This document shows positions 1 through 17,991 of a stretch of DNA of 64,000 bases, one piece after another. Each line of letters opens with the position of its first letter. Position 1 is the stretch's first letter. A program made the position numbers and the translations under genes. The notes under the pieces were generated by a model. The model was not told where the DNA came from. It saw only the letters and a program-made list of their open reading frames with translations, and ran no database searches. Source of the stretch: Blautia hydrogenotrophica DSM 10507 (GTDB taxonomy: Bacteria > Bacillota > Clostridia > Lachnospirales > Lachnospiraceae); the NCBI RefSeq assembly GCF_034356035.1, contig NZ_CP136423.1, positions 744,001-808,000 of the forward strand. Direction: 5' to 3'.

Positions 1-1
1 G

Positions 2-319
2 AGGCTTCAAAAAGGTGATCTAGCGGATTTCATCTGCTTCGATGGGAAAGTTCTAGACGGGCCTTATGCAAGTGAATCACTGACCTGGGAAGAAAAGATC
101 CTACAAAGGGGCAGCAGGATGTCTGTGGCAGCCGTGTACTGCGGCGGAAAACTGATTGTGGAGAGAGGAAAATCGTGTTCCGGAAAAGAAGATCAGGCAG
201 CGAAGAGAGTGGGGCAGTTTGCCCAGGAAAAGGCAAAACAGGGTCAGCCAGCCAATGAGAAGCTGATTCATAAGATTGCTCGGTTTTATACGGAATGGGA
301 AGAGGAACAGGAGCGTTAA
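2..319 (+). CDS. Amidohydrolase family protein, C-terminal part (gene enters from the left edge)
   Basis: The frame is open from base 2, so the true start lies outside the window; the internal ATG at 119 is not a start. The visible 105 residues carry the closing beta-sandwich pattern of metal-dependent amidohydrolases such as guanine, cytosine or adenine deaminases: a GDLADFICFDG strand, then a later VAAVYCGGKLIVERGK strand near the end of the domain. The metal ligands are upstream and not visible, so the substrate is open. It ends 12 bases before the racemase-family gene and is probably part of the same operon, which fits an aminohydrolase acting on a nitrogen heterocycle. Confidence 0.6.
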   Translation, partial: RLQKGDLADFICFDGKVLDGPYASESLTWEEKILQRGSRMSVAAVYCGGKLIVERGKSCSGKEDQAAKRVGQFAQEKAKQGQPANEKLIHKIARFYTEWEEEQER

Positions 320-331
320 GGAGGAGGTAAG

Positions 332-1048
332 ATGATTCGGATTGCTATTATATCACCGATTTTAGCACCGGAGGATGACTATCGGAGCAAGTATCGGCTG
401 AGAGATTGTACCGGTATTCCGGCAGAGTTTGAATTTTCGTATATCAAGAAAGGGCCTAGATTTATTCTGAATGCCTATGACGATGCGCTGGCTGCGCCAG
501 CTTTGCTTCGAAAGGTCCTGGAATATGAAAAAAGAGGGTTTGACGCAGTCGTGATTAATTGCAGCGCAGACACTGCCTTGAGGGCCTGCCGAGAGGCAGT
601 TCGCATTCCGGTGATCGGTCCGACGGAAAGTACAATGCTCTATGCTATGCAGCTTGTAGAACAGTTCTGTGTGCTGACTTTTACCAAAAAGATCAACAAC
701 CGCTTTCATAGGATAGCCAGGGAATTGGGGATAGAAGAACGGCTGTGTGAGGTGAGCTCTGTGGAGATAGATTTCTCGGAGATTAGCAACGGGGAAGAAA
801 GAGTGGTAAATGCCCTTTACCGAGAGATTCAGGAGCTTTATGAGCGGACAGGCTGTGACGGATACATTCTGGGATGTACGGATTTTGAAGACCTGGCACC
901 TCAACTAAATGAGAAATTAAGGGAAAACGGGATGGATGTGGTGATTTTTAAACCATTTGAGATTTCTGCGTATCAGGCGTATATGACAGTTGCCATGGGA
1001 CTGCGCCAGGGGACAGACAGCTATCCAAGATCTCAGATTCAGATCTGA
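332..1048 (+). CDS. Asp/Glu/hydantoin racemase family protein
   Basis: A 238-residue protein of the Asp/Glu/hydantoin racemase superfamily. The two catalytic cysteines of the family are visible at Cys77 (in INCSAD) and Cys182 (in GCTDFEDL), one in each pseudo-symmetric lobe, and VIGPTESTM matches the usual V-G-x-E-A-M stretch. Length equals that of hydantoin and allantoin racemases. The ATG at 332 follows GGAGGAGG at ideal spacing. Placed just before a cyclic amidohydrolase, it may racemise a 5-substituted hydantoin or allantoin so that the hydrolase can use both enantiomers; that role is inferred from context. Maleate isomerase-like activity in the same superfamily is an alternative. Confidence 0.8.
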   Translation: MIRIAIISPILAPEDDYRSKYRLRDCTGIPAEFEFSYIKKGPRFILNAYDDALAAPALLRKVLEYEKRGFDAVVINCSADTALRACREAVRIPVIGPTESTMLYAMQLVEQFCVLTFTKKINNRFHRIARELGIEERLCEVSSVEIDFSEISNGEERVVNALYREIQELYERTGCDGYILGCTDFEDLAPQLNEKLRENGMDVVIFKPFEISAYQAYMTVAMGLRQGTDSYPRSQIQI

Positions 1049-1088
1049 GTTTCGGAAAGTACATCATATAGAGAAGGAGTGGATAAAA

Positions 1089-2459
1089 ATGATATATGAC
1101 TTGATTGTAAAAAATGCTAAGATTGTCAGCCCTGACAGCATCACAGACGGCTGCGTTTTCGTGAAGGATGGGAAGATTGCCGCAGTAGGTGAGAGCGCAG
1201 AAGGGGCAAAAGCCCAAAAGATCGTCGATGCAGGCGGAAAATATGTACTGCCTGGAGGTGTGGATGTGCATGTACATTTTCGGGACCCGGGCCTAACTTA
1301 CAAGGAAGATTTCAGCACGGGTTCCATGGCGGCAGCTGCGGGAGGAATCACGACCGTCTTTGACATGCCCAATGTGCAGCCTCCTACGTTGAGTGTGGAA
1401 AATTTTCAGATTAAGAAAAAAATCGCGGAAGAAAAATCCTATGTAAATTATGGAATTTATGCGTATCTGGTCAATAACTTAGATCAGATTGATGGATTGA
1501 TTGACGCAGGAGTGTGCGGGTTTAAATGGGATTTAAGCACCTTTGACTGGGAACTACCGGAAGGTTACTATCTTCCGGACAACAATGAGGCGGCAGATAT
1601 TTTCCGAGCAATCGCAAAGCACGATTATGTAGTGACTGTCCATGCAGAGGATATGGAATTAGTGAAAAACTATACGGAGCATCTGAAGGAAGAGGGAAGA
1701 GATGAGAAAGACTTCTATTCCCACGTGGAAGCAAGGCCGGATATCGTAGAACTTTCGGCCCTGTACCGTACATTTGTGCTCTCAGAGGTGTCCGGATGTA
1801 GAGTACATATCACCCATCTGACTTCGAAACGGGGCTTGGAACTCATCAAAGAATTCCAGAGAAAGGGAACACCGGTGACTTCTGACGTGGGTCCTGCCTG
1901 GTTTACTTTCAGTGCAGAGGACTATGAGAAATTTGGCGGCGGAATCCGAGTGATTCCAGCCATCCGTTACCGGAAAGATTCGGATGCTTTGTGGAAAGGA
2001 CTGGCCAGTGGAGACATCGAGGTTTTGGCCACGGACCATGCACCCCACTCCAATGATGAGAAGTTTAACCGTACCTGGTGGGATACGCTGCCTGGAACTA
2101 TTGGAGTTCAGACCAGTCTGCCGATTCTTCTGGACCGTGTAAATAAAGGTGAGATCACCATCAACCGGGTCGTTGATTGCATGGCAGCCCAGCCATCGAA
2201 GATCTTTGGTTTGTATCCCAGAAAAGGGTGTATCCAGCCAGGAGCAGATGCCGACTTGACGATTGTGGACATGGAAAAAGAGTGGACAGTGACTCACGAG
2301 GAAATGTACAGCAAGACAAAGTACACTCCTTACGATGGATTCCAGTTAAAAGGGAAACCAGTGATGACCATTGTCATGGGCTCTATTGTCATGGAAGACG
2401 GCAAGATTGTAGGAAAACCAGGACATGGAAGGATGGTAAATCCAAAACAGGAATGGTAA
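1089..2459 (+). CDS. Cyclic amidohydrolase of the dihydroorotase/hydantoinase/allantoinase group
   Basis: A 456-residue metallo-hydrolase that opens cyclic amide rings. Visible binuclear metal ligands are His61 and His63 (HVH), the carboxylatable Lys146 (in GFKWDL), His185 (VHAED), His243 (HITHLT) and Asp316 (ATDHAPH). Start chosen at ATG 1089 because AAGGAG precedes it; an earlier in-frame ATG at 990 lies inside the preceding gene. Most allantoinases and hydantoinases have a C-P-H/Q-Y-L segment after the fourth His; here the corresponding stretch reads SDVGPAWF, so the substrate pocket differs. Context (racemase before, ureidoglycine aminohydrolase-like protein after) suggests a ureide or hydantoin, but exact substrate is unproven. 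Confidence 0.8.
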   Translation: MIYDLIVKNAKIVSPDSITDGCVFVKDGKIAAVGESAEGAKAQKIVDAGGKYVLPGGVDVHVHFRDPGLTYKEDFSTGSMAAAAGGITTVFDMPNVQPPTLSVENFQIKKKIAEEKSYVNYGIYAYLVNNLDQIDGLIDAGVCGFKWDLSTFDWELPEGYYLPDNNEAADIFRAIAKHDYVVTVHAEDMELVKNYTEHLKEEGRDEKDFYSHVEARPDIVELSALYRTFVLSEVSGCRVHITHLTSKRGLELIKEFQRKGTPVTSDVGPAWFTFSAEDYEKFGGGIRVIPAIRYRKDSDALWKGLASGDIEVLATDHAPHSNDEKFNRTWWDTLPGTIGVQTSLPILLDRVNKGEITINRVVDCMAAQPSKIFGLYPRKGCIQPGADADLTIVDMEKEWTVTHEEMYSKTKYTPYDGFQLKGKPVMTIVMGSIVMEDGKIVGKPGHGRMVNPKQEW

Positions 2460-2475
2460 TGCGAGGAGGCAGGTT

Positions 2476-3204
2476 ATGATTATAGATCACCACAACCACA
2501 TCTGGGAAGGCGAGTCTACAGGGGGCTTTCTGGATGAGGGAATGAGTGTAAAGAGGATTCTAAAGGAAATGGACCAAGCCGGAGTGGATGTGGCTGGCGT
2601 ATGTACAGTAGCCCAGTCCATAGACAATGACTATGTGGTGAATGCGTGTCGGGAACATCCAGACCGTTTCTTTGGCTTTTGTATGGTAAATCCCAGGGAT
2701 GGACAGGCTGTATCCACACTGCGCCATTATCTAGATCAGGGACTTCGGGGGCTGAAGCTGCATCCCCGGCTGCACGGCTACCAGTTAGGCGATCATGAAT
2801 TGATGGACCCTCTGATGGAGGTATGTCGGGAGTATCAGGTACCAGTATTTTCCCATGGGGGCTCTGAGGAGAATGACCACCCGTTTTACTTTGAAGAGCT
2901 GGCGAGAGCTTTTCCTGAGGTGACAGTGATTTTGGGGCATATGTGTGCGCTTAATTACTGTGATGATGCGATCACGGTTGCGGCACGGAATTCCAATATT
3001 TATCTGGATACTTCTACGGCGGAATTGTTCAGTGTAAAAGCGGCGATTAAAAAAGTAGGGGCAGACAGAATTGTCATGAGTACAGACTGGCCAGGCAATG
3101 ATTTTCGGATGGAACTTTTGAAGATCGAGATTGCATCGGAGGGAAACCAAGAGGTTTATCAGAAGATTGCCGGTGAAAATATGCGAAAGATTATGAATTT
3201 GTGA
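2476..3204 (+). CDS. Small TIM-barrel amidohydrolase (amidohydrolase family 2, PF04909-like)
   Basis: A 242-residue protein with the mononuclear metal set of the ACMSD/amidohydrolase-2 family: His6 and His8 in the opening DHHNH, His127 (FSHGG), His155 (LGHM) and Asp204 (STDWPG). GLKLHP before the second His is typical of this family. It is shorter than ACMSD decarboxylases (about 330), like many small putative hydrolases of this group. Sixteen bases separate it from the cyclic amidohydrolase, so it is in the same operon. It could hydrolyse the ring-opened carbamoyl product or a lactone/lactam; nothing in the sequence settles which. Confidence 0.75.
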   Translation: MIIDHHNHIWEGESTGGFLDEGMSVKRILKEMDQAGVDVAGVCTVAQSIDNDYVVNACREHPDRFFGFCMVNPRDGQAVSTLRHYLDQGLRGLKLHPRLHGYQLGDHELMDPLMEVCREYQVPVFSHGGSEENDHPFYFEELARAFPEVTVILGHMCALNYCDDAITVAARNSNIYLDTSTAELFSVKAAIKKVGADRIVMSTDWPGNDFRMELLKIEIASEGNQEVYQKIAGENMRKIMNL

Positions 3205-3221
3205 GAGAGAGGAGAACAGGA

Positions 3222-3893
3222 ATGAAACAGAATTTAATTGTAATGCTGACGTTTAATGATGAAACCGTAAAGAATGCCAAGGAGTGTTTTCTGGCATGCA
3301 AAGATCTGCCAGTAAAGGACTGGGGATTTAAAGACATCGGCCTTCCTAGAGATGAGATGGTGGATCTAGTAAAGACTATGAAAGCAGAGGGAAAGGTGAC
3401 GAACCTAGAGATCGTATCTTTATCGGAGGAGGAAGGCCTCGCTGGAGCTAAGATCGCTGTGGAGGCAGGCTTCGATGTGCTGATGGGGACGGTCTACTAT
3501 GATTCCATTCGGGATTATCTGAAAGGAACCGGTGTGAAGTACTATCCTTTCTGCGGAAAAGTCTATGGTCATCCTTCCATTTTGGACGGAACGATCGAGG
3601 AGGTCACGGCTCATGCAAGAGAGCTGGAAGCGAAAGGCGTAGATGGAATTGATCTGCTGTCTTACCGTTATACCGGAGATGCCGTGACGTTATTGGGAGA
3701 GGTCGTGAAGGCTGTGAACATTCCGGTTGTCTCAGCGGGCAGCATTGATACTTATGAGAGAATCATGGAAGTCGTAGGTACCGGAGCAGATGGGATGACC
3801 ATGGGTTCCGCACTGTTTGCCCAGAAGTTTAAAAAGGATGGAAGCTTCCGTGAAAATTTGGAATTGGTTTGCGATTACATGGCAAAACATTAA
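3222..3893 (+). CDS. TIM-barrel protein of unknown function
   Basis: A 223-residue protein not assigned to a named enzyme. It reads as a (beta/alpha)8 barrel: alternating short hydrophobic strands and amphipathic helices, with a late VVSAGSIDTYERI strand and GADGMTMGSALF, which resembles the phosphate-gripping loops of HisA/TrpF/NanE-type barrels. DWGFKDIGLP near residue 40 is a further possible active-site strand. ATG 3222 follows GAGAGAGGAG; a GTG at 3201 overlapping the upstream stop is less likely. Its position between an amidohydrolase and the bicupin suggests an isomerase, aldolase or decarboxylase step in the same pathway. Confidence 0.6.
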   Translation: MKQNLIVMLTFNDETVKNAKECFLACKDLPVKDWGFKDIGLPRDEMVDLVKTMKAEGKVTNLEIVSLSEEEGLAGAKIAVEAGFDVLMGTVYYDSIRDYLKGTGVKYYPFCGKVYGHPSILDGTIEEVTAHARELEAKGVDGIDLLSYRYTGDAVTLLGEVVKAVNIPVVSAGSIDTYERIMEVVGTGADGMTMGSALFAQKFKKDGSFRENLELVCDYMAKH

Positions 3894-3909
3894 TTAGGAG
3901 GATGAGAGT

Positions 3910-4704
3910 ATGGATTTATCAATGAAAAACCCAGGAATGAAATTGATAGAAGGAAATCATTTGAGCATTACCCGTGCGACAGTCGCACCGTTTTCCGCGA
4001 ATCTGCTGCCGAAAGCCTTTGTACTGGACAGCTTTTTCCCGGAATGGGAAAACACGAAGGTATACGTGTATGCGACGCCTGAGATTGGGGCGAAGTTTAT
4101 TGAGTGTAAATTAGCCATTGAGAAAGATGGTGGCAGCAAAGAACGGATTTTGAATGGATATGAGAACTTTTTGTATATTATCCGCGGGCAAGTGGAAGTT
4201 ATCATTTCCGGAAAGACATATTCCATGGAGAAAGAAGGATATTTCTGGCTGCCGCCGATGGTAGACTTTGAGATCAAAAATAAAAAGGAGGAGACAGCGG
4301 AGATTCTCTGGGTACGTAAAAAGTATCAGGAAACGAAATTTTTCTCTGTGCCGGACCCGATTATTTCCAGCGTACTGGATATCACGCCGATTCACAGTCC
4401 GGCGGAAGAAGAACAGCAGTGTGTTCCTTTTGAGAAAAACAGAGGTTTTGATATGGCTATGAATATGCTGACGTTCTACCCAGGTGTTACCTTCCCATTT
4501 ACGGAGACCCATGTGTTTGAACATGGTGGATACTTCCTGGACGGAAGAGGAAATTTCTGGATTAATGGAATCAATTACGAGGTTCACGAGGATGACTTCT
4601 GTTATATGGCGCCTTATGCACCTCACTATGTGGTTGCTTACGGGCCAGAACCTCTGAGATATTTGCTTTACAAACCTGTGAACCGGGATTTCAGTTTAGA
4701 GTAA
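3910..4704 (+). CDS. (S)-ureidoglycine aminohydrolase-like bicupin
   Basis: A 264-residue protein with two cupin barrels (about 60-130 and 180-260), the same length and architecture as AllE/UGHY, which releases ammonia from ureidoglycine in allantoin breakdown. The C-terminal cupin keeps the AllE hallmarks: PG-x-x-FP, E199-x-H201-x3-H205 followed by G, and the terminal YLLYK-x-x-NR signature. The fourth metal ligand, Gln in characterised AllE (CPQWYG), is His239 here (APHYVV), a more ordinary cupin ligand. ATG 3910 follows AGGAGGATGAG. No allantoate amidohydrolase lies in the window, so a full allantoin pathway is not shown; a related amino-ureide substrate is equally possible. Confidence 0.7.
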   Translation: MDLSMKNPGMKLIEGNHLSITRATVAPFSANLLPKAFVLDSFFPEWENTKVYVYATPEIGAKFIECKLAIEKDGGSKERILNGYENFLYIIRGQVEVIISGKTYSMEKEGYFWLPPMVDFEIKNKKEETAEILWVRKKYQETKFFSVPDPIISSVLDITPIHSPAEEEQQCVPFEKNRGFDMAMNMLTFYPGVTFPFTETHVFEHGGYFLDGRGNFWINGINYEVHEDDFCYMAPYAPHYVVAYGPEPLRYLLYKPVNRDFSLE

Positions 4705-4728
4705 GGGGTTATCCCATTGGAGGAGCTT

Positions 4729-6201
4729 ATGAGACAGGATATCTATCTGATTGCGGTGGACCAAGGGTCTTCCGGAACCATGAGTGCGCTGTTTGATGGG
4801 GATTTAAGACAGGTGGACTGTGTGGATATTCCGGTGTCTGTCGCTACACCAAGATACGGCTGGGTAGAGCAGGACCCGTGGGAGCTGCTGAATTCTGTCC
4901 GGGACGGTGCCAAACGGCTGATGGAAAGAAATCCAGAATGTCTAGAAGGTTTGGCAGGAATCGGACTCGCGAATCAGGGAGAGTCCTTTCTGCTCTGGGA
5001 TACGCAGACCGGGGAACCTGTCACTCCTGTAATAAGCTGGCAAGACAGTCGGAGTGAGAACTACTGCGCTCAGCTAAAACAGGAGGGGAGAGGGCGATGG
5101 TTCCATGAGAGGACAGGTCTGCATCTGTCCAGTGAATGGCCAGCGTTGAAAGTGCGAGAGCTGCGCAGATCAGATGAAAAGTTAGATTTGCGGTGCAGAA
5201 GCGGTAGAATCGCTTTTGGCCAGTTGGACGCTTGGTTTTTGTATGTTTTGACTGGGCACAGGAGGTTTGCCTCGGACCATGGAACTGCCTGCCGGACTGG
5301 ATTCTATAATCTAAGACAGGGAAAATGGGATGAAGAGCTGATCGAATTCTTTTGCGGGGATTCTTTGATCTTTCCGGAATTGACAGACAATGTCTGCCGG
5401 ATAGAAGGGCTGGATTTGGGAATTGGCAAAGAAATTCCCTGGATTGCCGGCGGTCTGGATCAGTCGGTGACATTGATTGGCCAGGGATGTACGCAGCCGG
5501 CAGATGCAAAGGTGACTTACGGTACCTGCTGTGCCTGTTGGATGAATCTGGGTTCCAAGCTTGTACTGGATGAAAACCTGACGACGAGTATAGCCTGGAA
5601 AATCGGGGAGGAATACACCTACGGGCTGGCAGCGGAAGGAGGAGCTTCCGGCAGTATTGTCACTTGGCTTCTCAGAAATTTCTCCACAGATTGGAGGCTG
5701 GAAGATCTCTCACAGATCGCCAGAAGCTATGACGATCAGGAGTCTCTGCTTTTTGTCCCTGCATTTGGAGGTTTGTCAGCGCCATATTGGAAGGAAGCAA
5801 AGGGGACGCTGTTTGGAATCACAGCAGGTACCCGGCCGGAACATATATTAAGGGCTGGATTGGATGCGGTGGCCTACACGGTTCGAGATATTTTGGACTG
5901 TATGCCTCTGATCAAGAAATTGGTTTTGGATGGAGGAATGTCAGCCAACGAGTATCTAGTTCAAAAACAGGCAAATGTTTTGCAGCGACCGGTGGAGAAA
6001 TCTCTGGAAAAAGAAGGTACTTTGCTGGGAATTGCCCATCTGTGCACCAGAAGCCTGGGAGTGAGAGCGGGAATAGGAGAAGAGACAAAAGCTGAGATTG
6101 TATTTCCGGAGGCAGATGGTCAGGATGGTTATAGGAAGTGGAAACAGGCGGTAAAGACCGTGATTACATATTATAATGGAAGAGGTGTCATAGATGGATA
6201 A
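4729..6201 (+). CDS. FGGY-family kinase, glycerol kinase-like (substrate probably not glycerol)
   Basis: A 490-residue sugar/polyol kinase with the N-terminal phosphate loop DQGSSGT (11-17), GWVEQDP, and the second ATP-domain motifs YGTCCACW and VPAFGGLSAPYW. Compared with GlpK, the glycerol-contacting NQRET is NQGES (83-86): the Arg is Gly84 while Glu85 stays, and the loop after it reads WQDSRS. That points to a different polyol or hydroxy-acid. ATG 4729 has GGAGGAG just upstream; TTG 4717 is an alternative. It overlaps the aminotransferase start by 8 bases, indicating translational coupling. A second kinase with the same change is at 59250. Confidence 0.75.
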   Translation: MRQDIYLIAVDQGSSGTMSALFDGDLRQVDCVDIPVSVATPRYGWVEQDPWELLNSVRDGAKRLMERNPECLEGLAGIGLANQGESFLLWDTQTGEPVTPVISWQDSRSENYCAQLKQEGRGRWFHERTGLHLSSEWPALKVRELRRSDEKLDLRCRSGRIAFGQLDAWFLYVLTGHRRFASDHGTACRTGFYNLRQGKWDEELIEFFCGDSLIFPELTDNVCRIEGLDLGIGKEIPWIAGGLDQSVTLIGQGCTQPADAKVTYGTCCACWMNLGSKLVLDENLTTSIAWKIGEEYTYGLAAEGGASGSIVTWLLRNFSTDWRLEDLSQIARSYDDQESLLFVPAFGGLSAPYWKEAKGTLFGITAGTRPEHILRAGLDAVAYTVRDILDCMPLIKKLVLDGGMSANEYLVQKQANVLQRPVEKSLEKEGTLLGIAHLCTRSLGVRAGIGEETKAEIVFPEADGQDGYRKWKQAVKTVITYYNGRGVIDG

Positions 6202-7489
6202 AAGAAAAAAAACGTCCCAAATGCAGGAACGGGCAATGAAGACGATGCCGTTGGGTGTGAATTCCAACGGACGTTACTGGGGAAAGAAAGTGACTCCATA
6301 TTTCCAGAGAGGCAAAGGGGCCTATGTCTGGGATGTGGATGGAAATCAGTATATCGACTATCGACTGGCTTTTGGACCGGTAATTTTGGGATATGCCTAC
6401 GATGAGGTGGACGAGAAGGTAATCAGCGCGATTCGGGATGGAGTGACGCCAGGAATTACGTCTCAATTGGAATTAGAGGCGGCCGAGAAGATTGTGGAGC
6501 TTTGTCCAGCTACAGAGAAGGTGCGCCTGGTAAACGGTGGTTCGGATGCCACGCAACATGCTCTGCGGGTGGCACGGGCCTACACAGGAAAAGAGAAGAT
6601 CATTAAATTCGAAGGGGGCTACCATGGTTCTTATGACTATGTACTGTTCTCTACTTACGCACCGCCATCCACCTATGGGAATTCCAGAAGTCCTATCACA
6701 GTCCCGGCCAGCTCTGGAATTCCGTCAGCTTTGGGAGATTTGATCATTACGCTTCCATTTAACAATCTGGAAATTTTGGAGGCGACGTTGAAACGCTGCG
6801 GAAATGAGGTGGCGGCAATTATCACGGAGCCGATGCTGGGCAATTTCGGCTGCGCGGACCCGCTTCCAGGATTTATGGACGGCGTGCGTAGACTCTGTGA
6901 TGAATATGGAATTGTCTGGATACTGGATGAGGTGAAGACAGGATTTCGAATTGCGAAGGGTGGAGCACAGGAGAAATATGGCTATCAGCCAGACATTACC
7001 ACCTACGCAAAAGCATTGGGGAACGGTTATCCTGTGGCAGCTTACGGAGGTAAGGCCAAGATCATGGATATCGTAGGGCAAGGTGTGACCCAAGGGGGTA
7101 CCTACGCCGGAAACGCGGTGGCAGCCGCAGCGGCTAAGGCCACATTGGAAATTATGAGTACGCAGAATGTCCACGGGTACATTGACGCTATGGGAAGCAG
7201 ACTTCAAAATGGGCTGCGGGCGATCTTTAAAAAAGCTGGAATTCCGTGCCTTCTCAGCTCTATGCCTGCAATTTTCTCAGTTAGCTTTGGGATTGAGAGT
7301 AATCTGGATGCCAGAGAGTGGGCAAAAGCAGATGCTTCCATATATAAGAAGATTGCAGCGAGAGCTTTTGAGAAGGGAATTCTCATCGACGAGGACCCGA
7401 GAGAACCATTCTGTATGTCTTATTCCCATACAGAAAAAGACATCGACGATACGCTGGAAATTTTTGATGAGATTGTGAGAACTTTATAA
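6194..7489 (+). CDS. Class III PLP aminotransferase, glutamate-1-semialdehyde mutase-like
   Basis: A 431-residue fold-type I PLP enzyme. LDEVKTGFR (244-252) contains the Asp that binds the pyridine nitrogen, and TYAKALGNGYP carries the Schiff-base Lys273. GGSDATQHALRVARAYTGK and FEGGYHGSYD are close to HemL, but many catabolic aminotransferases of this subgroup share them, and no tetrapyrrole genes are nearby. Start ATG 6194 lies inside the last codons of the kinase gene. Within the operon it would move an amino group to or from the intermediate before or after phosphorylation. The intermediate is not identified. Confidence 0.8.
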   Translation: MDKRKKTSQMQERAMKTMPLGVNSNGRYWGKKVTPYFQRGKGAYVWDVDGNQYIDYRLAFGPVILGYAYDEVDEKVISAIRDGVTPGITSQLELEAAEKIVELCPATEKVRLVNGGSDATQHALRVARAYTGKEKIIKFEGGYHGSYDYVLFSTYAPPSTYGNSRSPITVPASSGIPSALGDLIITLPFNNLEILEATLKRCGNEVAAIITEPMLGNFGCADPLPGFMDGVRRLCDEYGIVWILDEVKTGFRIAKGGAQEKYGYQPDITTYAKALGNGYPVAAYGGKAKIMDIVGQGVTQGGTYAGNAVAAAAAKATLEIMSTQNVHGYIDAMGSRLQNGLRAIFKKAGIPCLLSSMPAIFSVSFGIESNLDAREWAKADASIYKKIAARAFEKGILIDEDPREPFCMSYSHTEKDIDDTLEIFDEIVRTL

Positions 7490-7531
7490 AGTGAAAAAAC
7501 TGTCATGGAAAAGAGCGAGGGAGGAAGGAAA

Positions 7532-8041
7532 ATGGATGCAATGCAGGCAATTTTGACAAGAAAGAGTGTCCGCAGCTATACAGGACAGAAGGTGACAGAT
7601 CAGCAGGTTCAGCAGATTATTGAGGCTGGCATGAGAGCGCCTTCAGGTCTGGCAAATGAACCCTGGAGATTTGCGATTGTACGTGACCCTCAGGTGAAGG
7701 GAAATATCGCGCAACTTACAAAACACACCAAAGTTCTGGAAGGTGCGGATGTCTTGATCTGTCTGTTTATGGACAACGAGGTAGGATACGATCTGGTGAA
7801 GGATTCCAACACCATCGGTGCGTGCGCAGAGAACATGTTATTGGCTGCACATGCCATGGGGCTGGGGGCCGTATGGATTGCAGAGATTCGCAAAAATAAA
7901 GATCGGGTGGCTGAGGAATGTGGAGTAGATCCAGAGAGATACGATATGATGGTCGTGATACCTGTGGGTTACAGCGCCGAATCGGCAGACCCTACACCGA
8001 GAAAACGGACTTTGGATGAAGTAATTATTGGAAGAAAATAG
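7532..8041 (+). CDS. Nitroreductase family flavoprotein
   Basis: A 169-residue FMN protein of the nitroreductase fold. Visible family features are the opening ILTRKSVRSYT with the FMN-phosphate Arg residues, MRAPSGLANEPWRF, and NTIGACAENMLLAAHAMGLGAVWI. ATG 7532 follows GGGAGGAAGG; ATG 7505 upstream has no site and is rejected. The family uses NAD(P)H to reduce nitro groups, quinones, enones or flavins; the true substrate is unknown. Here it sits between the aminotransferase and the DAO flavoprotein and may reduce a double bond or recycle a flavin. Confidence 0.8.
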   Translation: MDAMQAILTRKSVRSYTGQKVTDQQVQQIIEAGMRAPSGLANEPWRFAIVRDPQVKGNIAQLTKHTKVLEGADVLICLFMDNEVGYDLVKDSNTIGACAENMLLAAHAMGLGAVWIAEIRKNKDRVAEECGVDPERYDMMVVIPVGYSAESADPTPRKRTLDEVIIGRK

Positions 8042-8062
8042 GACAAGAGCAGGTATAAGTGT

Positions 8063-9229
8063 ATGAAAATAAGAAAAATTGGAATTATTGGAGGAGGAGT
8101 CGCTGGTACAGCGCTAGGTTATTATCTCAGCCTCTATGAGAATGCGGAAATCACAATTTTTGAGAAAGATAGAATTGGATGTGGTTCTACTGCAAAATCA
8201 GCGGGGACGGTCTGCCTGTTTGACGACTCTTTGAGCAACCGTTACTGGGACGTGCGGCTGTATGGCTTTGAGACTTATCGGAAGATGGAAGAGGAGGAGA
8301 AGGGCTCCGCAGGTTTTGACCAAACTGGAACTTTGGTGGTGGCTACTAACGAGGAAGTGGAGCAGGTGATACGAACCGGTATTGCCCTGGCAAAAGCAGC
8401 CGGCTATCAGGGAGAGTATATCACGGATAAAGCGCGGATTCAGCAGATTCTCCCGGATATCGACACAGAACATATTCTCGGAGCAGGCTACACCAAAGAT
8501 GACGGCTACTTTGACGGGACGATGATTTCGAATACTTATGCCCGGAAATTAAAAGAGAATGGCGGCAAAATTCTGACCATGACGAAGGTGATTGAGCTGT
8601 TGAAAGAGAACGGCAAGGTCATAGGCTTAAAGACAGAGGATGGGACTTCCTATGCGTTTGATTATGTGGTGGATTGTACAGGTCCGTGGAGCCGCATAAC
8701 AGGGAATATGGCAGGAATTGACGTGCCGGTATGGCATACGAAGGCGGAAGCGTTTTTCCTGAGTCCTCCTGGTAAAAAACTGGACTATGTTTTTCCAGTA
8801 CTGAAATACCCGGCTTTTTACGCTCTGCGTGCAGGTGATAACATTTTTATCTGTAAATCCCATCTGTCCATGGATTTAAACAATCCGATGCATGCGGGCA
8901 ACTGGAATCCAGACGAGATTCCGGCGACAGGAGGAACCGACGAGTATTTTATCGAGTTCTTATTTGAACAGTTAGAGACAACAGTTCCTGGAATTTTGGA
9001 CAGCGGTCTGGTGTCCTCCTGGCTGTCTTATCGGGCAGAGACGAAGGATTTCCTGCCAATTCTGGGAGAGACTCCAGTGGAGGGATATCTGGTGGCTTCC
9101 GGTTACGGTGGAAATGGAATCATTGAGGCACCGGCAGCCAGCAGGGACTTGGCGAAATACATCATGACAGGGGAGAAGACGCCTCTGTTGGAGGATTGGG
9201 CGTTCATGCGTCTGGTGGAACGTGCATAA
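8063..9229 (+). CDS. FAD-dependent amine/amino-acid dehydrogenase (DAO family)
   Basis: A 388-residue flavoprotein with the N-terminal dinucleotide loop GIIGGGVAGTALGYYL, the FAD-binding GCGSTAKSAG segment, a middle DCTGPWS strand and the C-terminal GYGGNGIIEAPAASRDLAKYI loop of the DAO (glycine/sarcosine/D-amino acid oxidase) family. In an anaerobe it cannot rely on oxygen; the immediately following etfB-etfA genes suggest ETF as acceptor, as in sarcosine or dimethylglycine dehydrogenases. No tetrahydrofolate domain is present (those enzymes are about 850 residues). Substrate likely a secondary or primary amine generated by the upstream hydrolases. Confidence 0.75.
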   Translation: MKIRKIGIIGGGVAGTALGYYLSLYENAEITIFEKDRIGCGSTAKSAGTVCLFDDSLSNRYWDVRLYGFETYRKMEEEEKGSAGFDQTGTLVVATNEEVEQVIRTGIALAKAAGYQGEYITDKARIQQILPDIDTEHILGAGYTKDDGYFDGTMISNTYARKLKENGGKILTMTKVIELLKENGKVIGLKTEDGTSYAFDYVVDCTGPWSRITGNMAGIDVPVWHTKAEAFFLSPPGKKLDYVFPVLKYPAFYALRAGDNIFICKSHLSMDLNNPMHAGNWNPDEIPATGGTDEYFIEFLFEQLETTVPGILDSGLVSSWLSYRAETKDFLPILGETPVEGYLVASGYGGNGIIEAPAASRDLAKYIMTGEKTPLLEDWAFMRLVERA

Positions 9230-9255
9230 AGGCCGAAGGGCAAAGGGAGGCAAAG

Positions 9256-10050
9256 ATGAAACTTGCTGTATGTATCAAACAAGTGCCGTCTTCCAGTGAG
9301 GTATCGGTGGATCCAGTGACTCATAACCTGATTCGGGAGAAATCAGGGACGATGATGAATCCATCGGATCTCAATGCCTTGGAGATGGCCTTGGGTATAA
9401 AAGAAGAAAATCAGGGCGTCTGTGAGACTGCCGCAATTACCATGGGGCCGCCTGGAGCTCAGGAAGAGCTTCGCACAGCAATGGCCATGGGGATTGACAG
9501 GGGCTGCCTGCTCACGGACCGGTGTCTGGCAGGGGGAGATACGATTGCCACTGCCAGAGCTTTGGCAAAGGGGCTGAGCAGACTGGGAACCTATGACTTG
9601 ATTTTAGCGGGTGCGGAATCTTCGGATGGGGCGACGGGACAGGTCGGACCGATGTTGGCAGAGGCCATGGGGCTTCCTCATGTTTCCTCTGTTCAGCGGA
9701 TAGAGAAGGTGAGTGAGGGAGAGATACAGGTGCTGAAGAAATTTCATCAATCTGCGGTGCGTCTGCGTGTAAAACTGCCGGCAGTGGTCACAGTCGTATA
9801 TGGATGCAACGATCCTCGCCTTCCCACTCTGCGCTCTAAGATGGCTGCTAAGAAGAAGGAAATTGTTGTCTATACCAACGAAGAATTGCAGATTCCAAAA
9901 GAGCTGGCTGGCCTGCAAGGGTCTCCCACAATGGTGACGGAGTCTTTTCTGCCGGAACGCGTTCAGACGGAGAATTTTCTGACAGGAAATGCCAGAGAAA
10001 TCGCACAGAAGATTTTGGAATTGGTTGAGAAAGAGAGGGGTAATACATAA
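9256..10050 (+). CDS. etfB: Electron transfer flavoprotein subunit beta
   Basis: A 264-residue EtfB. MKLAVCIKQVP at the N-terminus, NPSDLNALEMAL, and the nucleotide-binding DGATGQVGPMLAEAMGLPH are diagnostic, as is the C-terminal LPTLRSKMAAKKKEI recognition-loop helix that docks with partner dehydrogenases. ATG 9256 follows GGGAGG; the longer frame from 9196 overlaps the upstream gene and is rejected. Its stop overlaps the etfA ATG by one base (TAATG). With EtfA it forms the soluble heterodimer that accepts electrons, here most likely from the DAO flavoprotein just upstream. Confidence 0.95.
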   Translation: MKLAVCIKQVPSSSEVSVDPVTHNLIREKSGTMMNPSDLNALEMALGIKEENQGVCETAAITMGPPGAQEELRTAMAMGIDRGCLLTDRCLAGGDTIATARALAKGLSRLGTYDLILAGAESSDGATGQVGPMLAEAMGLPHVSSVQRIEKVSEGEIQVLKKFHQSAVRLRVKLPAVVTVVYGCNDPRLPTLRSKMAAKKKEIVVYTNEELQIPKELAGLQGSPTMVTESFLPERVQTENFLTGNAREIAQKILELVEKERGNT

Positions 10051-11054
10051 TGGCGAGTGGAATCTGTGTTTTTGCAGAACATTGGAATCAGGAACTGAGC
10101 CCCGCTTTCTTTGAATTGATCACGGCGGCCTGGGAGCTGAAGGAAAAAACGCAGGAACCGATACAAGTACTTTTGGCCGCGGCACAGCCAGAGACTCTGA
10201 TGACTCAAATGAAAGGACTGCCGATTGACGCGATCTATGCGGTAAAGCTTCCCAGGGAAATCTGTTTTCAGGAGGAGCGTTTGGCCAGGGTTTATAGTGA
10301 GATGCTGAAGGAGATTTCTCCTAGTGTGTTATTAGTGCCTGCCAGTGACCAAGGGAGATCGATTTTCCCCAGGGTAGCGTATCGGCTGGGAGCTGGGATG
10401 ACTGCGGACTGTACGGAGCTGGAAATTAGAAAAAGGGAAGATGGTTCCCATGGACTGCGTCAGATCAAGCCTTCCTTCGAGGCGAATGTCAAAGTGTGCA
10501 TTGAGTGTAAAACAGGGATTTATCCTCAGATCGCGACACTGAGGGAAGGGGTTTGCGAGGCATGGCAGTTGGACGGCAAGGAAAGAGATATCCCAGTGAT
10601 CTGGATGGACGGCAGTCTCGAGGAAGAGGTTTTGGTGGAGCTGCTGGAAGTACTGCCTCCAGCTGCGGAGGCTGGAAGTTTGCAAGCAGCCGACGTGGTG
10701 GTTGTGGGCGGAAGAGGAGCACTGGAGAAGGATAATTTTCAATTGCTGCGAAAGCTGGCAGGCCAGTTGGGAGCAGCAGTGGGCGGAACCCGCCCGGTCA
10801 TGGATATGGGAGAGGTTCCTTTTGAGAATCAGATTGGCCAGACGGGCTGCACGATTCGTCCAAAGATCTGTCTGTCTTTTGGGGTCTCCGGGGCAGTGCA
10901 GCACACAGAAGGAATCAAGAATACAGCTTTGTATATTGCTGTGAATACTGCTGAGGACGCACCGATTTTCCAGGTGGCGGATTACGCAGTGAACGCAGAT
11001 ATGAGACCTATTTTGGAAGAATTGCTGACTCTTTTGAAAGAACGGCAGGATTAA
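10050..11054 (+). CDS. etfA: Electron transfer flavoprotein subunit alpha
   Basis: A 334-residue EtfA, the FAD-carrying partner of EtfB. The C-terminal FAD domain is intact: VVGGRGALEKDNFQLL, LGAAVGGTRPVMDMG, QIGQTG, SFGVSGAVQH and IAVNTAEDAPIFQVADY. The N-terminal domain (1-190) is more divergent and there is no extra ferredoxin domain, unlike some clostridial EtfA proteins. It may deliver electrons to a membrane or soluble acceptor, or bifurcate; sequence alone does not decide. A dihydrolipoamide dehydrogenase-like gene follows after 26 bases. Confidence 0.95.
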   Translation: MASGICVFAEHWNQELSPAFFELITAAWELKEKTQEPIQVLLAAAQPETLMTQMKGLPIDAIYAVKLPREICFQEERLARVYSEMLKEISPSVLLVPASDQGRSIFPRVAYRLGAGMTADCTELEIRKREDGSHGLRQIKPSFEANVKVCIECKTGIYPQIATLREGVCEAWQLDGKERDIPVIWMDGSLEEEVLVELLEVLPPAAEAGSLQAADVVVVGGRGALEKDNFQLLRKLAGQLGAAVGGTRPVMDMGEVPFENQIGQTGCTIRPKICLSFGVSGAVQHTEGIKNTALYIAVNTAEDAPIFQVADYAVNADMRPILEELLTLLKERQD

Positions 11055-11080
11055 GATAAGAGGGAAGGAGTGAGAGGAAG

Positions 11081-12466
11081 ATGGAACGTACGTTTGATTT
11101 GATTGTGCTAGGAGCTGGGCCGGGAGGTTATGTGGCGGCAATCCGAGGAGCGCAGCTAGGGATGAAAGTGGCGGTTCTAGAGAAAAAACATGTGGGCGGA
11201 GTCTGCCTGAATATCGGATGTATCCCGTCCAAAAATCTGATTTCCAGCGCGGCTTTGGTGAGTGGAGCCGGGAAGTTGGCAGGTTTTGGAGTTCGGACGG
11301 ACTTCACAGGCTTTGACTATGGCAGTGTACATGCTCAGTCTAGGATGGCAGCTGAGACTTTGTCAAAGGGAATCCGTTATCTGCTGGACAAAAACGGTGT
11401 GACTTTGGTGGAAGAGGCTGGAAGGATTACCGGGCCGAGAGAAGTTACGACAGCTTCAGGCGAGAAACTGAGTGCTCAGAATATTATCGTTGCCACAGGT
11501 TCCAGGCCGAGACAGATACCAGGATTGGAAGCAGACGGCGAACAGATTTTTTCCTCGGACGATATGCTGTTGTGCAAAGAGTTGCCGAAGAGCATCTGCA
11601 TCATTGGCGGCGGAGCGATAGGCTGTGAGTTCGCCTATATTTTAAACTCTTTTGGGGCATCGGTATCCTTAGTGGAGATGACGGAACATTTGCTGCCGAA
11701 TGAGGATGCGGAGGTGGCGAAAGCTTTGGCCATGGCATTTAAAAAGAAAAAAATCAGCGTGCACCTGAAATCAAAAGCTGAGATTGTCCGGAAAGACGAC
11801 CAGGGTGTGACAGTGAAAATTACAGATGTAAAAGGAAAAGCCAAGGAAACCACAGTGGAAAAAGTCCTGGTGGTGACAGGAAGAGTACCGAATACAGAGG
11901 ATCTGGGATTGGAAGAAGTCGGAGTGGAACTGGAAAAAGGCTTTGTGAAAGTCAACGAATATTATCAGACTAACGTACCTTCCATATATGGAATTGGGGA
12001 TGTTGTGCCGACGCCTATGCTCGCCCATGTTGCCTCGAAAGAAGGGGAACTGGCGGTGGAGTATATCGCCGGAAAGTCAGGTACGGAGGCTCCTTTTGTG
12101 CCTTATATTCCAGGGTGTGTGTACTGCGAACCCCAGGTGGCCGGTTTTGGTGTCACGGAGGAAAGCGCCTTGGCTCAGGATTCTGAGGCGAAGGTTTTCA
12201 AATTTCCGTTTAAGGGAGCAGGAAAGGCAGTTGCCATTGGTAAGAGTGAGGGATTTGTCAAGATTATCACGGATCGGGACGGGCAGATTGTCGGCGCACA
12301 TATCATAGGAGCAGACGCGACAGAGCTGATTCATGAGCTGGTTCTGGCTGCCTGGAAGAAGATTCCTGTTCAAGAAGTGGCGAAGATGGTGCACGCGCAC
12401 CCAACGCTCTCTGAGGCAGTGATGGAATGTTGTAGAGGATATGAAGATTGGATGATTCATATCTGA
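11081..12466 (+). CDS. lpdA: Dihydrolipoamide dehydrogenase-like flavoprotein disulfide reductase
   Basis: A 461-residue protein with the complete E3 architecture: FAD loop GAGPGGYVAA, redox disulfide Cys42/Cys47 (GGVCLNIGCIPSK), NAD loop IIGGGAIGCEFAYI, second FAD motif YGIGDVVPTPMLAH, and the C-terminal HPTLSE dyad (His440/Glu445). No lipoyl domain is fused. No 2-oxoacid dehydrogenase or glycine cleavage genes flank it; it is instead the last redox gene of a DAO-ETF operon. It could serve a lipoyl protein elsewhere (for example glycine cleavage H protein) or link ETF to NAD. Confidence 0.85.
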   Translation: MERTFDLIVLGAGPGGYVAAIRGAQLGMKVAVLEKKHVGGVCLNIGCIPSKNLISSAALVSGAGKLAGFGVRTDFTGFDYGSVHAQSRMAAETLSKGIRYLLDKNGVTLVEEAGRITGPREVTTASGEKLSAQNIIVATGSRPRQIPGLEADGEQIFSSDDMLLCKELPKSICIIGGGAIGCEFAYILNSFGASVSLVEMTEHLLPNEDAEVAKALAMAFKKKKISVHLKSKAEIVRKDDQGVTVKITDVKGKAKETTVEKVLVVTGRVPNTEDLGLEEVGVELEKGFVKVNEYYQTNVPSIYGIGDVVPTPMLAHVASKEGELAVEYIAGKSGTEAPFVPYIPGCVYCEPQVAGFGVTEESALAQDSEAKVFKFPFKGAGKAVAIGKSEGFVKIITDRDGQIVGAHIIGADATELIHELVLAAWKKIPVQEVAKMVHAHPTLSEAVMECCRGYEDWMIHI

Positions 12467-12502: not shown

Positions 12503-13333
12503 ATGGAAACACTGTATGTGTCCGATTTGGATGGGACTTTACTTAACAAGAAGAAAGAAATCACGCCGAAAACCGCTGAAATTTTGAATCGGTGTATTCG
12601 CGAAGGTATGAAGTTCTCTGTGGCGACGGCCCGTATGCCTTATGGCTGTGATTACAGATTGCAAGATCTTGCCATGACGACACCGGGGATTTTGACGAAT
12701 GGAGTCTTCCTCTATGATTTTAACCAGCAAAGGTATTTGGATGTCCAGGCAATGGAGCCAGAGGTAGTAAAAAATGCGCTAAAAATTTTTAGAAGGTTTG
12801 GAATTTCTTGTTTCCTCTATTTATATAAGAAAGAACAGCTCAGCCTTTACTATGAAGATCAGAAGATGGAATCTCAGGTTCAGTATTACAGCGAACGGGC
12901 GTTGGAAAGCTGCAGCGAAGTAAAAAGAGTGGATGACTTATTTGAAATTTTGCAGGAAGGGAAAGTGGTTTATCTGGCAGTGACAGACTGCCAGGAGACT
13001 TTAAGTCCTGTCTTGGAGGAGCTGGGACAGGTTTCCGGACTTAGATATGCCTATTACCTGAATATCTATAATGGCCTTTACTGTCTAGAGGTGTTCAGCG
13101 ACCAGGCCAGCAAAAAAGAGGCTCTGTTAAAGCTAAAAGAGATGACAGGTTGCGACCAGGTGGTGGTTTTTGGAGATAATCTCAATGATCTTCCGATGAT
13201 TGAAATTGCTGACAGAAGCTATGCTCCGGCCAATGCCTTGGAGGAAATCAAAGGGCGCGTGACCGGAGTGCTGGATGACTGTGACCATGACGGTGTGGCA
13301 AAATTTTTGGAGAGAGAGTGGAAAAATAAGTAA
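12503..13333 (+). CDS. HAD-superfamily phosphatase, Cof type
   Basis: A 276-residue haloacid dehalogenase-type phosphatase of class IIB (Cof). Motif I VSDLDGTLL with the nucleophilic Asp is at residues 6-14, motif III Lys lies in the KKEALLKL helix, and motif IV GDNLNDLPMI is near residue 230. Such enzymes hydrolyse sugar phosphates, PLP or FMN. It starts 36 bases after lpdA and closes the operon; it may dephosphorylate the product of the kinase pathway or be a housekeeping phosphatase read from the same transcript. Confidence 0.8.
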   Translation: METLYVSDLDGTLLNKKKEITPKTAEILNRCIREGMKFSVATARMPYGCDYRLQDLAMTTPGILTNGVFLYDFNQQRYLDVQAMEPEVVKNALKIFRRFGISCFLYLYKKEQLSLYYEDQKMESQVQYYSERALESCSEVKRVDDLFEILQEGKVVYLAVTDCQETLSPVLEELGQVSGLRYAYYLNIYNGLYCLEVFSDQASKKEALLKLKEMTGCDQVVVFGDNLNDLPMIEIADRSYAPANALEEIKGRVTGVLDDCDHDGVAKFLEREWKNK

Positions 13334-15956: not shown

Positions 15957-16296
15957 AGCAATAATTTCCTTTTCTGAGATTACAGTTGTTTTTTTAATCT
16001 TAACTGATCGGGAATAAAAAATCAACAAGAGTCTATTAATTAACATGATTTCACGTAATAGTTCATCCATACCGTGCGAGGTAGCATAAAACATAAGTGC
16101 ATGTTTTTGAAAGCAGATATCTGTACGAGTTGAACTGTTACAAGCCAATATATCTATCTGTAATTGTTTATATATTAACATTTTGGGGGAATTAGGCATC
16201 CGTGCAGCAAAGGTGAAGGTCCAAGTGACGAATCTGTTACATAGTATAGAAGAAAATAGCATAAATTATTGAAAAAAGAAACTGTGGGAGTGAGTG
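15957..16296. other. Divergent intergenic region between tetR and the Csp-like protease
   Basis: About 340 bases, AT-rich, with scattered short inverted repeats. A piece at 16131-16144 (GAACTGTTACAAG on the plus strand) is the reverse complement of the GTAACAGTTC word seen in element D and at 46127. No confident promoter or RNA could be assigned. Confidence 0.4.
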
Positions 16297-17991
16297 ATGA
16301 CGCTGAGTGCGATGGATTATATATCACCTGCTTTGGATGAAAGCTATGCGGATTTTATCGTACGGCATGACCAAAATGTAGGAGAAATTTTTTCGGATTT
16401 TTCGGAAGACTATATTCAAAGGATTGATGGGACTTATGCGGTCTTGTATACGCCGTTGTCGGAGCTCAATGGTCTTGGAGTGGATAGCTATACCTACAAC
16501 ACCATTCCCAATTGTTTTACCTATATGGACAGCCAGGCTTTGGCAGCCTCTAGGATTACGAACCTTCAAAATCATCCGTATCTTAATCTTCAAGGAAGAA
16601 ATACTGCAATTGCTGTGATTGATTCGGGGATAGATTACACGCATCCGGCTTTTTTGAGCTATGAGCGTACCAGGATCGCCTATCTATGGGACCAAAGAAT
16701 CCCGTCTGATAACTCGACCGTTCCCTATGGAAGTGTGTATACAGAGGAACAGATCAATGCAGCGTTACAGTCAGAGGACCCTTGGGAAATAGTGCCTTCT
16801 AGGGATGAAAATGGTCATGGAACATTTATGGCGGGAATAGCGGCAGGGACTCCGGAGCCGACGGAGGAGTTTTCAGGGGCTGCACCGGAAGCTACTTTAA
16901 TTATTGTGAAACTAAAACCTGCTAAAAACTATCTGAGAGAGTTTTATTTTCTTCCAGAAGGGGTGGATTATTATCAGGAAAATGATATTATGTTTGGAAT
17001 TAGTTTTGCTTTGGAATGTGCCAGGCAGCTTCAGATGCCACTGGTCATTTGCATAGGGCTTGGAAATAATCAGGGGACTCACCAGGGAAAGAATCCGTTG
17101 GCATTGTATATGGACAGCGTGACCAGGAACCCGCAGACAGCTGTCACGGTGGCGGCTGGCAATGAAGGAAACTCCAGGAGGCATTACATGGGAGAAATTC
17201 GGCCACAAGAGAGAAACGTGACCGTAGAGATGCGGGTAGGGGAGGAAGAACGAGGCTTTTTTGTGGAGTTTTGGGGGAGCTCGCTGTATCTTTACCGGGT
17301 CAGGCTTCAATCTCCGTCGGGTGAAATTCTGGATGTGAGTACGATCAGAGGAACTGGCACGCAGACTTTGTCTTTTGTGTTTGTGGAGACAAAAGTAGAG
17401 GTGGGGTATTCGGCTATAGAACTGCAATCTGGGAGTACCCTGATTTTTTTTCGCTTCATAAGTCCTGTGGCGGGAATCTGGCGCTTTTTAGTCTATAGCG
17501 AGAGTTTGGACACTGTAGAATTTCATATGTGGCTGCCGGTACATACAACTTTTCGCACAGAAACTTATTTTTTAGAACCGTCTCCTTATAACACAGTGAC
17601 AAATCCGGGAGATTCGGAGGACTCCATAACGGTGACAGCATATGACAACCGGGACCAAAGTTTGTATCTGGAAGCTAGTAGGGGATATACACCCAATGGA
17701 GTGGTGAAGCCAGATTTGGCTGCTCCGGGAGTGCTGCTGACAGGGCCTGGTTCCCAAGGTAGGTATGTGCAGCGCTCGGGTACTAGCGTGGCAGCTGCTC
17801 AGACGGCGGGAGCAGTGGCGCTTCTCATGGAGTGGGCGGTGGTCAGGAAAAATGCTCCTTATTTAAACGGGACCAGTGCTAAAAATTATTTGACCAGGGC
17901 TGCGGCAAGAGACGAGGGCCTGACTTATCCGAATCCAGATTGGGGATACGGAAGACTGGACTTGTACCGGGTATTTGAGCTTCTAACGTGA
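16297..17991 (+). CDS. Subtilisin-like serine protease, Csp-like with jellyroll insert
   Basis: A 564-residue S8 peptidase without a signal peptide. The triad is Asp109 (VIDSGID), His174 (NGHGT) and Ser497 (SGTSVA), with the oxyanion Asn in VAAGNEGN. Residues 1-95 form a prodomain, and a beta-rich insert of about 130 residues sits between the Asn and Ser blocks, the layout of clostridial Csp proteases that activate the cortex hydrolase SleC during germination. The family has several paralogues in Lachnospiraceae and not all act in spores. ATG 16297 is preferred over GTG 16294 because of GGGAG six bases upstream. It is monocistronic. Confidence 0.8.
   Translation: MTLSAMDYISPALDESYADFIVRHDQNVGEIFSDFSEDYIQRIDGTYAVLYTPLSELNGLGVDSYTYNTIPNCFTYMDSQALAASRITNLQNHPYLNLQGRNTAIAVIDSGIDYTHPAFLSYERTRIAYLWDQRIPSDNSTVPYGSVYTEEQINAALQSEDPWEIVPSRDENGHGTFMAGIAAGTPEPTEEFSGAAPEATLIIVKLKPAKNYLREFYFLPEGVDYYQENDIMFGISFALECARQLQMPLVICIGLGNNQGTHQGKNPLALYMDSVTRNPQTAVTVAAGNEGNSRRHYMGEIRPQERNVTVEMRVGEEERGFFVEFWGSSLYLYRVRLQSPSGEILDVSTIRGTGTQTLSFVFVETKVEVGYSAIELQSGSTLIFFRFISPVAGIWRFLVYSESLDTVEFHMWLPVHTTFRTETYFLEPSPYNTVTNPGDSEDSITVTAYDNRDQSLYLEASRGYTPNGVVKPDLAAPGVLLTGPGSQGRYVQRSGTSVAAAQTAGAVALLMEWAVVRKNAPYLNGTSAKNYLTRAAARDEGLTYPNPDWGYGRLDLYRVFELLT

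Follow-up and report, generated by a model that had tools for sequence, protein, structure and literature searches.

The described systems closest to the locus reported here are the breakdown of hydantoins by a racemase, a hydantoinase and a carbamoylase, the catabolism of allantoin, the anaerobic reductive use of urate and the utilisation of ergothioneine. For the urate route, one account (PMC12507026) lists XdhD, YgfK/UacX, SsnA, HyuA, YgeW/UacY, YgeY and YgeX as the enzyme set, with SsnA coupled to YgfK or UacX yielding ureidomethyl-hydantoin and HyuA opening the ring. Here we describe a 26-gene run in Blautia hydrogenotrophica DSM 10507 that reaches into a 64,000-nucleotide stretch of its genome (contig C1:744001-808000, hereafter the window) and that appears to be a real, conserved variant of known ureide catabolism. 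Our leading interpretation, to which we give an even chance, is that it forms a single catabolic operon for one cyclic ureide, probably carboxylated and with a hydroxylated side chain, and that it has probably spread horizontally. With the terms we used, a search of open full texts returned no title describing this gene set.

The run spans 28.5 kb on one strand (C1:727979-756466) of a 3.6-Mb genome that is 98.7% complete. The original prediction had described its end, 13 tightly spaced same-strand genes at window positions 2-12466, and these are indeed present on the plus strand; the window edge cuts the operon, and we read its 5′ part from the upstream genome sequence. There, a PucR-type regulator is followed by E1-alpha, E1-beta and E2 genes, an ABC ATPase, two permeases, two BMP-family binding proteins, SDR1, SDR2, an M20 hydrolase, an iron alcohol dehydrogenase and an SsnA-like amidohydrolase of 507 residues, of which the window holds the C-terminal 105. 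The remaining genes, from the racemase to Lpd, follow in the order of Table 1, and a HAD-like gene (named by eye, as were the ABC ATPase and permeases) comes after Lpd at window position 12503. Twenty-one of the 25 junctions are at most 50 bp or overlap, the other four measuring 172, 105, 72 and 151 bp. Start codons were chosen by us (HydA 1089, TIM barrel 3222, EtfB 9256), and NCBIfam models were run on 21 of the 26 operon proteins, with only the best matches listed for some. Profile matches bore out the families first assigned (PF01177, Amidohydro_1, Amidohydro_2, AllE-like bicupin, FGGY, aminotransferase, nitroreductase, DAO, Lpd, EtfB and EtfA); the gene at 3222-3893, a TIM barrel, had been left unnamed. 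The reported lack of an allantoate amidohydrolase reflects where the window happens to begin: the M20 gene (C1:740385-741659), whose product is nearest to N-carbamoyl-L-amino-acid hydrolase, stops some 2.3 kb short of the window.

The racemase, HydA and the M20 hydrolase are each best matched by the corresponding solved hydantoin-pathway family. The racemase exceeds the PF01177 cut-off of 31 bits (Table 1); both of its catalytic-type cysteines align with those of its nearest solved chain, 3qvj (48 bits, tied with 2eq5), as judged against the Ser variant 3qvk. The M20 protein scores 312.7 bits against the N-carbamoyl-L-amino-acid hydrolase 3n5f and 219.2 against AllC (1z2l). HydA scores 310.7 bits against the L-selective hydantoinase 1gkr, 260.7 against the allantoinase 3hm7 and 213.2 against the dihydroorotase 3gri; among NCBIfam models, those for allantoinase and dihydroorotase score about equally and no equivalog cut-off is reached, the subfamily model TIGR00857 (named dihydroorotase) being exceeded at 354.4 versus 279.05. 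As a module of predicted function, the ureide half is well supported. The original claim of a ureide- or hydantoin-type catabolic unit is likewise supported, the locus reaching the cut-offs of neither the classical allantoin nor the known anaerobic urate pathway.

The substrate class is suggested by residues of HydA, which carries the motifs HVHFRDPG, MPNVQP and TDHAPH. At these places 1gkr reads HVHIID, MPITFP and SDHGGH, sharing only the His, and 3hm7 reads HVHFNEPG, MPLN and SDHSPS, with the Asn one residue on and neither the Arg nor the His. Of the five solved chains aligned, only the two dihydroorotases hold the complete Arg/Asn/His set. We take these positions to bind the substrate carboxylate in dihydroorotase, and a dihydroorotase-type set in HydA thus points to a carboxylated ureide. 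HVHFRDPG, MPN and TDHA[P/Q]H recur in all four cluster copies of HydA, with TDHAQH in the Blautia variant described below. The residue set is also found in two plasmid relatives, and the Arg and Asn are visible in biosynthetic-type relatives in these genomes. Azospirillum and Skermanella plasmids (L043, L044) combine a HydA relative (39% identity) with acetamidase, DUF3830 and ABC transporter genes, that of Skermanella also with a ring-opening amidohydrolase, in what appears to be another heterocycle pathway.

The cupin falls marginally below its AllE model (TIGR03214, 199.4 bits for a cut-off of 200). All six cluster cupins (that of the operon itself, one each in L009, L010 and L011, and two in L012) keep Glu-x-His-x3-His but have His at the fourth ligand position, which is Gln in L008 and in all five solved chains of the AllE family. 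The metal-ligand roles are presumably those of plant ureidoglycine aminohydrolase. Given the Gln-to-His change in 6/6 copies, AllE activity should not be assumed; the earlier description as an AllE-like bicupin holds by homology and not at this ligand.

The other genes concern carbon, redox and phosphate chemistry. Lpd exceeds its equivalog cut-off (Table 1), E1-beta a subfamily cut-off and E2 none, and E1-alpha stays below its own (TIGR03182, 359.9 of 393.85). The simplest reading of E1/E2/Lpd is a dedicated 2-oxo-acid or ketol dehydrogenase. Lpd had been tied to DAO-ETF oxidation; that assignment no longer fits, as the operon opens with E1-alpha, E1-beta and E2 and as, in the Oscillospiraceae genome described below, Lpd stays in the forward run with DAO-EtfB-EtfA apart. 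It is probably the E3 of the upstream-encoded E1/E2 complex. DAO is nearest to the solved chain 1y56_B (named sarcosine oxidase), then to dimethylglycine dehydrogenase and glycine oxidase, families that presumably include ETF-linked members, and amine oxidation via DAO-ETF is plausible. The aminotransferase exceeds the cut-off of the GntE model (Table 1); since a Chloroflexota protein bears the same name, GntE function is not implied. The FGGY kinase lies below the glycerol kinase cut-off, which a separate GlpK in the window (59250-60746) exceeds. The predicted model of the Amidohydro_2 protein (predicted local distance difference test, pLDDT, 93.5) gives fold matches to ACMSD-type decarboxylases and related hydrolases.

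The TIM barrel has Pfam matches below cut-offs, over a C-terminal phosphate-type motif, and the folds matched by its predicted model (pLDDT 87.3) are those of hexulose-phosphate synthase and KDPG aldolase. Its family counts 2495 relatives at E ≤ 0.001; at E ≤ 1e-20, matches occur in 3 of 299 phylum genomes. A TIM barrel and an FGGY kinase (by BLAST) occur together in three settings that lack these ureide genes (L040, L041, L042), with aldolase- and dehydrogenase-like genes (by eye) nearby. One is in the same genome (L040 1801-12307, C1:3479801-3490307), where the neighbours of a 54% identical TIM paralogue include an FGGY kinase and a HAD protein sharing 60% identity with that at window position 12503, as well as an HpcH-type aldolase and two dehydrogenases that were named by eye. 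Among 23 plasmids with a TIM match, five were opened, and the TIM barrel follows an acid-sugar kinase and PdxA in four of them but not in that from Staphylococcus. The acid-sugar kinase-PdxA-TIM barrel module is carried by proteobacterial plasmids (L014, L015, L016, L017); in L014 and L017 the TIM match belongs to a longer gene that carries a cupin protein annotation, and the annotations leave the third protein of the module unexplained.

From gene content, order, families and residue features we propose the following route, in which each reaction, the reaction order and the substrate are predicted. A BMP-type ABC importer under PucR control would take the compound in, and the initial step, a cut of the ring or a deamination, would fall to the SsnA-like amidohydrolase. 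The racemase would equilibrate the ring carbon, HydA open the ureide ring and the M20 hydrolase release an amino acid by taking off the carbamoyl group. The nitrogen of this amino acid could be removed either by DAO, with electrons passing to EtfBA, or by the class III aminotransferase. E1/E2/Lpd would then convert the 2-oxo acid to an acyl-CoA. The side chain may become a sugar-like fragment that is phosphorylated and processed by the SDRs, iron alcohol dehydrogenase, FGGY kinase and TIM barrel.

Conservation was queried with 27 proteins (the 26 of the operon and the HAD protein). The same gene order was found in an Oscillospiraceae metagenome-assembled genome (MAG; G1027, contig CALXDZ010000081; L031, L032), with identities of 81% for E1-alpha, 86% for E1-beta, 56% for E2, 73% for the ABC ATPase, 67-70% and 69% for the permeases, 74% for SDR1, 64-65% for SDR2, 49% for M20, 77% for the iron alcohol dehydrogenase, 46-49% for the SsnA-like protein, 67% for the racemase, 85% for HydA, 79% for Amidohydro_2, 74% for the TIM barrel, 75% for the cupin, 59% for FGGY, 70% for the aminotransferase, 75% for the nitroreductase and 62-63% for Lpd. 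It has two BMPs (60% and 55% to the first of the operon); DAO (73%), EtfB (48%) and EtfA (41%) come next on the opposite strand, apart from the forward run, and its PucR-type gene shows no more than distant similarity (24-29% in partial alignments). A Lachnospiraceae MAG (G1025; L048, L049, L009) keeps the order from PucR (60%) to the racemase (69%, at the contig end) on contig C81, with one BMP, and from HydA to DAO on contig C197 (L009, CAMQZX010000197), which then ends; EtfBA and Lpd were not searched there. Its M20 gene (L048 11386-12624) contains one in-frame TAG, which may reflect a pseudogene or an assembly error. A 3.6-kb contig of a Clostridiales Family XIII MAG (JAISML010000215, L010) holds the end of the TIM gene, the cupin, FGGY and the aminotransferase. 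The SsnA-like counterparts in L012, G1027 and G1025 are 45-51% identical. That two further genomes, including one outside the family, share the order is more than would be expected by chance, and the link of the ureide half to the sugar-like or 2-oxo-acid half is supported by this conserved order, its one basis. Anaerobic life and a gut habitat are suggested by the bacterial families concerned.

The operon is rare and has probably spread horizontally. The cupin at E ≤ 1e-30 matched 3 of 299 family genomes (its own, G136, which appears to be the same genome as G1025, and G031, a canonical-like protein at 31%), and a cupin scan of genome contigs, sensitive to close relatives only, found four loci. 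Amidohydro_2 at E ≤ 1e-40 matched 1 of 392 order genomes, its own, and none of six other listed genomes of the genus; of 398 phylum genomes it matched two, and in the second the match is a paralogue with sugar-type surroundings. At L021 11544-12993, from a different family of this phylum, two relatives of Amidohydro_2 (40%) stand in tandem among genes judged by eye to be of sugar type. Against the protein collection the query matched 120 proteins, 52 with at least 51% identity. The gene-order conservation called for by the original prediction is seen in G1025 and G1027; across Lachnospiraceae as a whole the unit is poorly conserved and rare. Taking UvrB as a single-gene yardstick (62% identity between G1027 and this genome), 17 of the 25 operon proteins matched in G1027 exceed it, Lpd barely. 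Operon identities often above UvrB and absence from close relatives suggest horizontal transfer (mobile elements were not searched for).

A diverged form of the operon occurs in a Blautia MAG (CAOJIB010000015; L012, L034, L035), with the ABC ATPase at 68% identity, permeases at 48% and 53%, BMP at 36%, SsnA-like and racemase both at 45%, HydA at 66%, Amidohydro_2 at 56%, SDR2 at 53%, two cupins at 41% and 53% and the TIM barrel at 33%, and distant matches to the aminotransferase (34%), alcohol dehydrogenase (27%) and kinase (23%). The next genes encode an FAH hydrolase, a CitE-like protein, malic enzyme, CitF and a 2-hydroxyacid dehydrogenase.

Several observations weigh against a single dedicated pathway of the proposed kind. 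The Blautia variant genome (a 2.5-Mb MAG of unstated completeness) gave no M20 match at E ≤ 1e-30, and its 32.6-kb contig no match to DAO, EtfBA, E1, E2 or Lpd at E ≤ 1e-5, so that the route there must differ; the missing M20 match suggests a core of importer, SsnA-like protein, racemase, HydA, Amidohydro_2, SDR2, cupin and perhaps TIM barrel. In G1027, E2, M20, the SsnA-like protein, EtfB and EtfA are less conserved than UvrB, as are both BMPs and FGGY, and PucR gave no match of that coverage. The His of HydA is also present in 1gkr and the Asn lies one residue on in 3hm7, leaving only the Arg distinctive by itself. For the TIM model the leading fold matches score almost equally, and the phosphorylated-fragment step is suggested by gene company.

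Of the alternatives, a diverged allantoin pathway survives best, though we consider it improbable at roughly one chance in five. Allantoin racemase, allantoinase, allantoate amidohydrolase and AllE would lead to ureidoglycolate, and the other genes would feed glyoxylate or glycine into metabolism. A racemase, allantoinase-like, M20 and AllE-like proteins and PucR do share one operon, the AllB model (TIGR03178, 344.1 of 357.85) and the AllE model are near misses, and the CitE-like, CitF, malic enzyme and 2-hydroxyacid dehydrogenase genes of the Blautia variant could form a malyl-CoA route for glyoxylate. The equivalog cut-offs are nevertheless missed, the M20 protein is nearer to N-carbamoyl-L-amino-acid hydrolase than to AllC, the Arg and His of HydA correspond to Asn and Ser in 3hm7, and the cupin ligand is changed in every cluster copy. 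No AllD or AllA model is among the matches listed for the 21 proteins, and E1/E2, FGGY and the TIM barrel are left unexplained.

Slightly less probable again is that the locus joins two or three modules of independent function, for scavenging hydantoin nitrogen, using sugar acids and oxidising amines, whose co-transcription is a matter of convenience. The TIM/FGGY pair does occur apart from ureide genes, and DAO-EtfBA is detached in G1027 with a poorly conserved ETF (41-48%). Near-full order in two families, the 17 of 25 proteins more alike than UvrB, and the interleaving of ureide, sugar-type and redox genes argue for one unit. Much less probable is a substrate in which a ureide or cyclic guanidine is attached to a chain of sugar origin, such as a hydroimidazolone that arginine forms with a deoxyosone, which would make the operon a dedicated anaerobic route for glycation products: the SsnA-like enzyme would yield a hydantoin with a polyol side chain, the racemase, HydA and carbamoylase a 2-amino-3-deoxy sugar acid, and DAO or the aminotransferase a 2-keto-3-deoxy acid for cleavage by the FGGY kinase and TIM barrel. 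Least probable of all is kinship with the reductive urate route described above (PMC12507026), in which case the SsnA-like enzyme would supply the hydantoin. The operon does hold an SsnA-like and a hydantoinase-like gene, but the SsnA-like protein reaches 100.5 of 455.5 bits for TIGR03314 and is the genome's only match at E ≤ 1e-20, none exceeding the cut-off, and no YgfK, YgeX or YgeW model is among the matches listed for the 21 proteins (the genome-wide search covered SsnA only).

Taken as a single ureide operon, the locus would be a conserved, probably mobile pathway from importer to CoA-forming dehydrogenase complex in two families common in animal guts, and its substrate, if found, a new nitrogen and carbon source for gut communities. 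Enzymes open to assay include HydA with its dihydroorotase-type set, the AllE-like cupins, in which one ligand is altered, and the unnamed TIM-barrel family.

Table 1. Operon genes within the window (window coordinates).
Feature	Position	Strand	Basis or remark
SsnA/TrzN-like amidohydrolase, C-terminal end	1..319	+	gene start about 1.2 kb 5′ of the window
Asp/Glu/hydantoin racemase family protein	332..1048	+	PF01177 108.9 bits; both catalytic-type Cys
HydA, putative cyclic-ureide hydrolase	1089..2459	+	nearest solved relative L-selective hydantoinase (queries from 1092)
Amidohydro_2 protein (fold class of ACMSD-type decarboxylases and related hydrolases)	2476..3204	+	PF04909 104.6 bits
Phosphate-binding TIM barrel, unnamed family	3222..3893 (open reading frame from 3201)	+	hexulose-phosphate synthase / KDPG-aldolase fold class
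AllE-like bicupin, His replacing Gln of AllE relatives	3910..4704	+	TIGR03214 199.4 bits; alignments
FGGY kinase, GlpK-like but under GlpK cut-off	4717..6201	+	TIGR01311 354.0 of 590.35
Class III aminotransferase, HemL-like	6194..7489	+	NF041362 (GntE) 571.2 bits, cut-off 525
Nitroreductase-family flavoprotein	7505..8041	+	PF00881 92.9 bits
DAO-family flavoprotein	8063..9229	+	PF01266 188.9 bits
EtfB	9256..10050	+	profile matches
EtfA	10050..11054	+	profile matches
Lpd, dihydrolipoyl dehydrogenase	11081..12466	+	TIGR01350 501.6 bits, cut-off 408.8

Elsewhere in the window, a subtilase-like gene (16294-17991, 565 aa, by eye) lies beside a TetR-like regulator on the other strand. A second catabolic cluster, probably for hydroxyproline use, extends over the window end (window 62153-63160 and L003 153-12293; C1:806153-818293). 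It contains a proline racemase/hydroxyproline epimerase family gene and a protein that matches the cis-3-hydroxy-L-proline dehydratase LhpI below the cut-off (378.8 bits, cut-off 700), with, by eye, a two-part FAD (flavin adenine dinucleotide) dehydrogenase, a DAO, a LIV-type ABC transporter and an iron alcohol dehydrogenase.

Compared with known systems, the operon shares SsnA-like, hydantoinase-like and M20-family members with the reductive urate pathway, but HydA misses the HyuA model (TIGR02033, 286 versus 393.25 bits), and the reductases and lyase of that pathway were not seen in the operon. With allantoin catabolism (AllB/AllC/AllE, allantoin racemase, PucR) it shares families and a PucR-type regulator; in addition to the AllB miss, the M20 protein falls far below AllC (TIGR03176, 283.8 versus 597.75) while exceeding the broad subfamily NF006771, named allantoate amidohydrolase (438.6 versus 399), and the cupin has His for the AllE Gln. 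The hydantoin trio (racemase, 1gkr-type L-hydantoinase, 3n5f-type carbamoylase) resembles the operon in bringing all three types together, but 1gkr lacks the dihydroorotase-type Arg and Asn of HydA, and the trio is not known to include the 23 further genes (importer, E1/E2/Lpd, FGGY, TIM barrel, DAO-ETF, cupin and others). The ErtD cut-offs of ergothioneine utilisation (NF058538, 292.6 of 600; NF058539, 289.2 of 650) and that of ErtE (392.5 of 520 bits) are not reached, but the ErtD and ErtE models describe, by name, a carboxylated hydantoin followed by an N-carbamoyl amino acid hydrolase, the same succession as we propose here.

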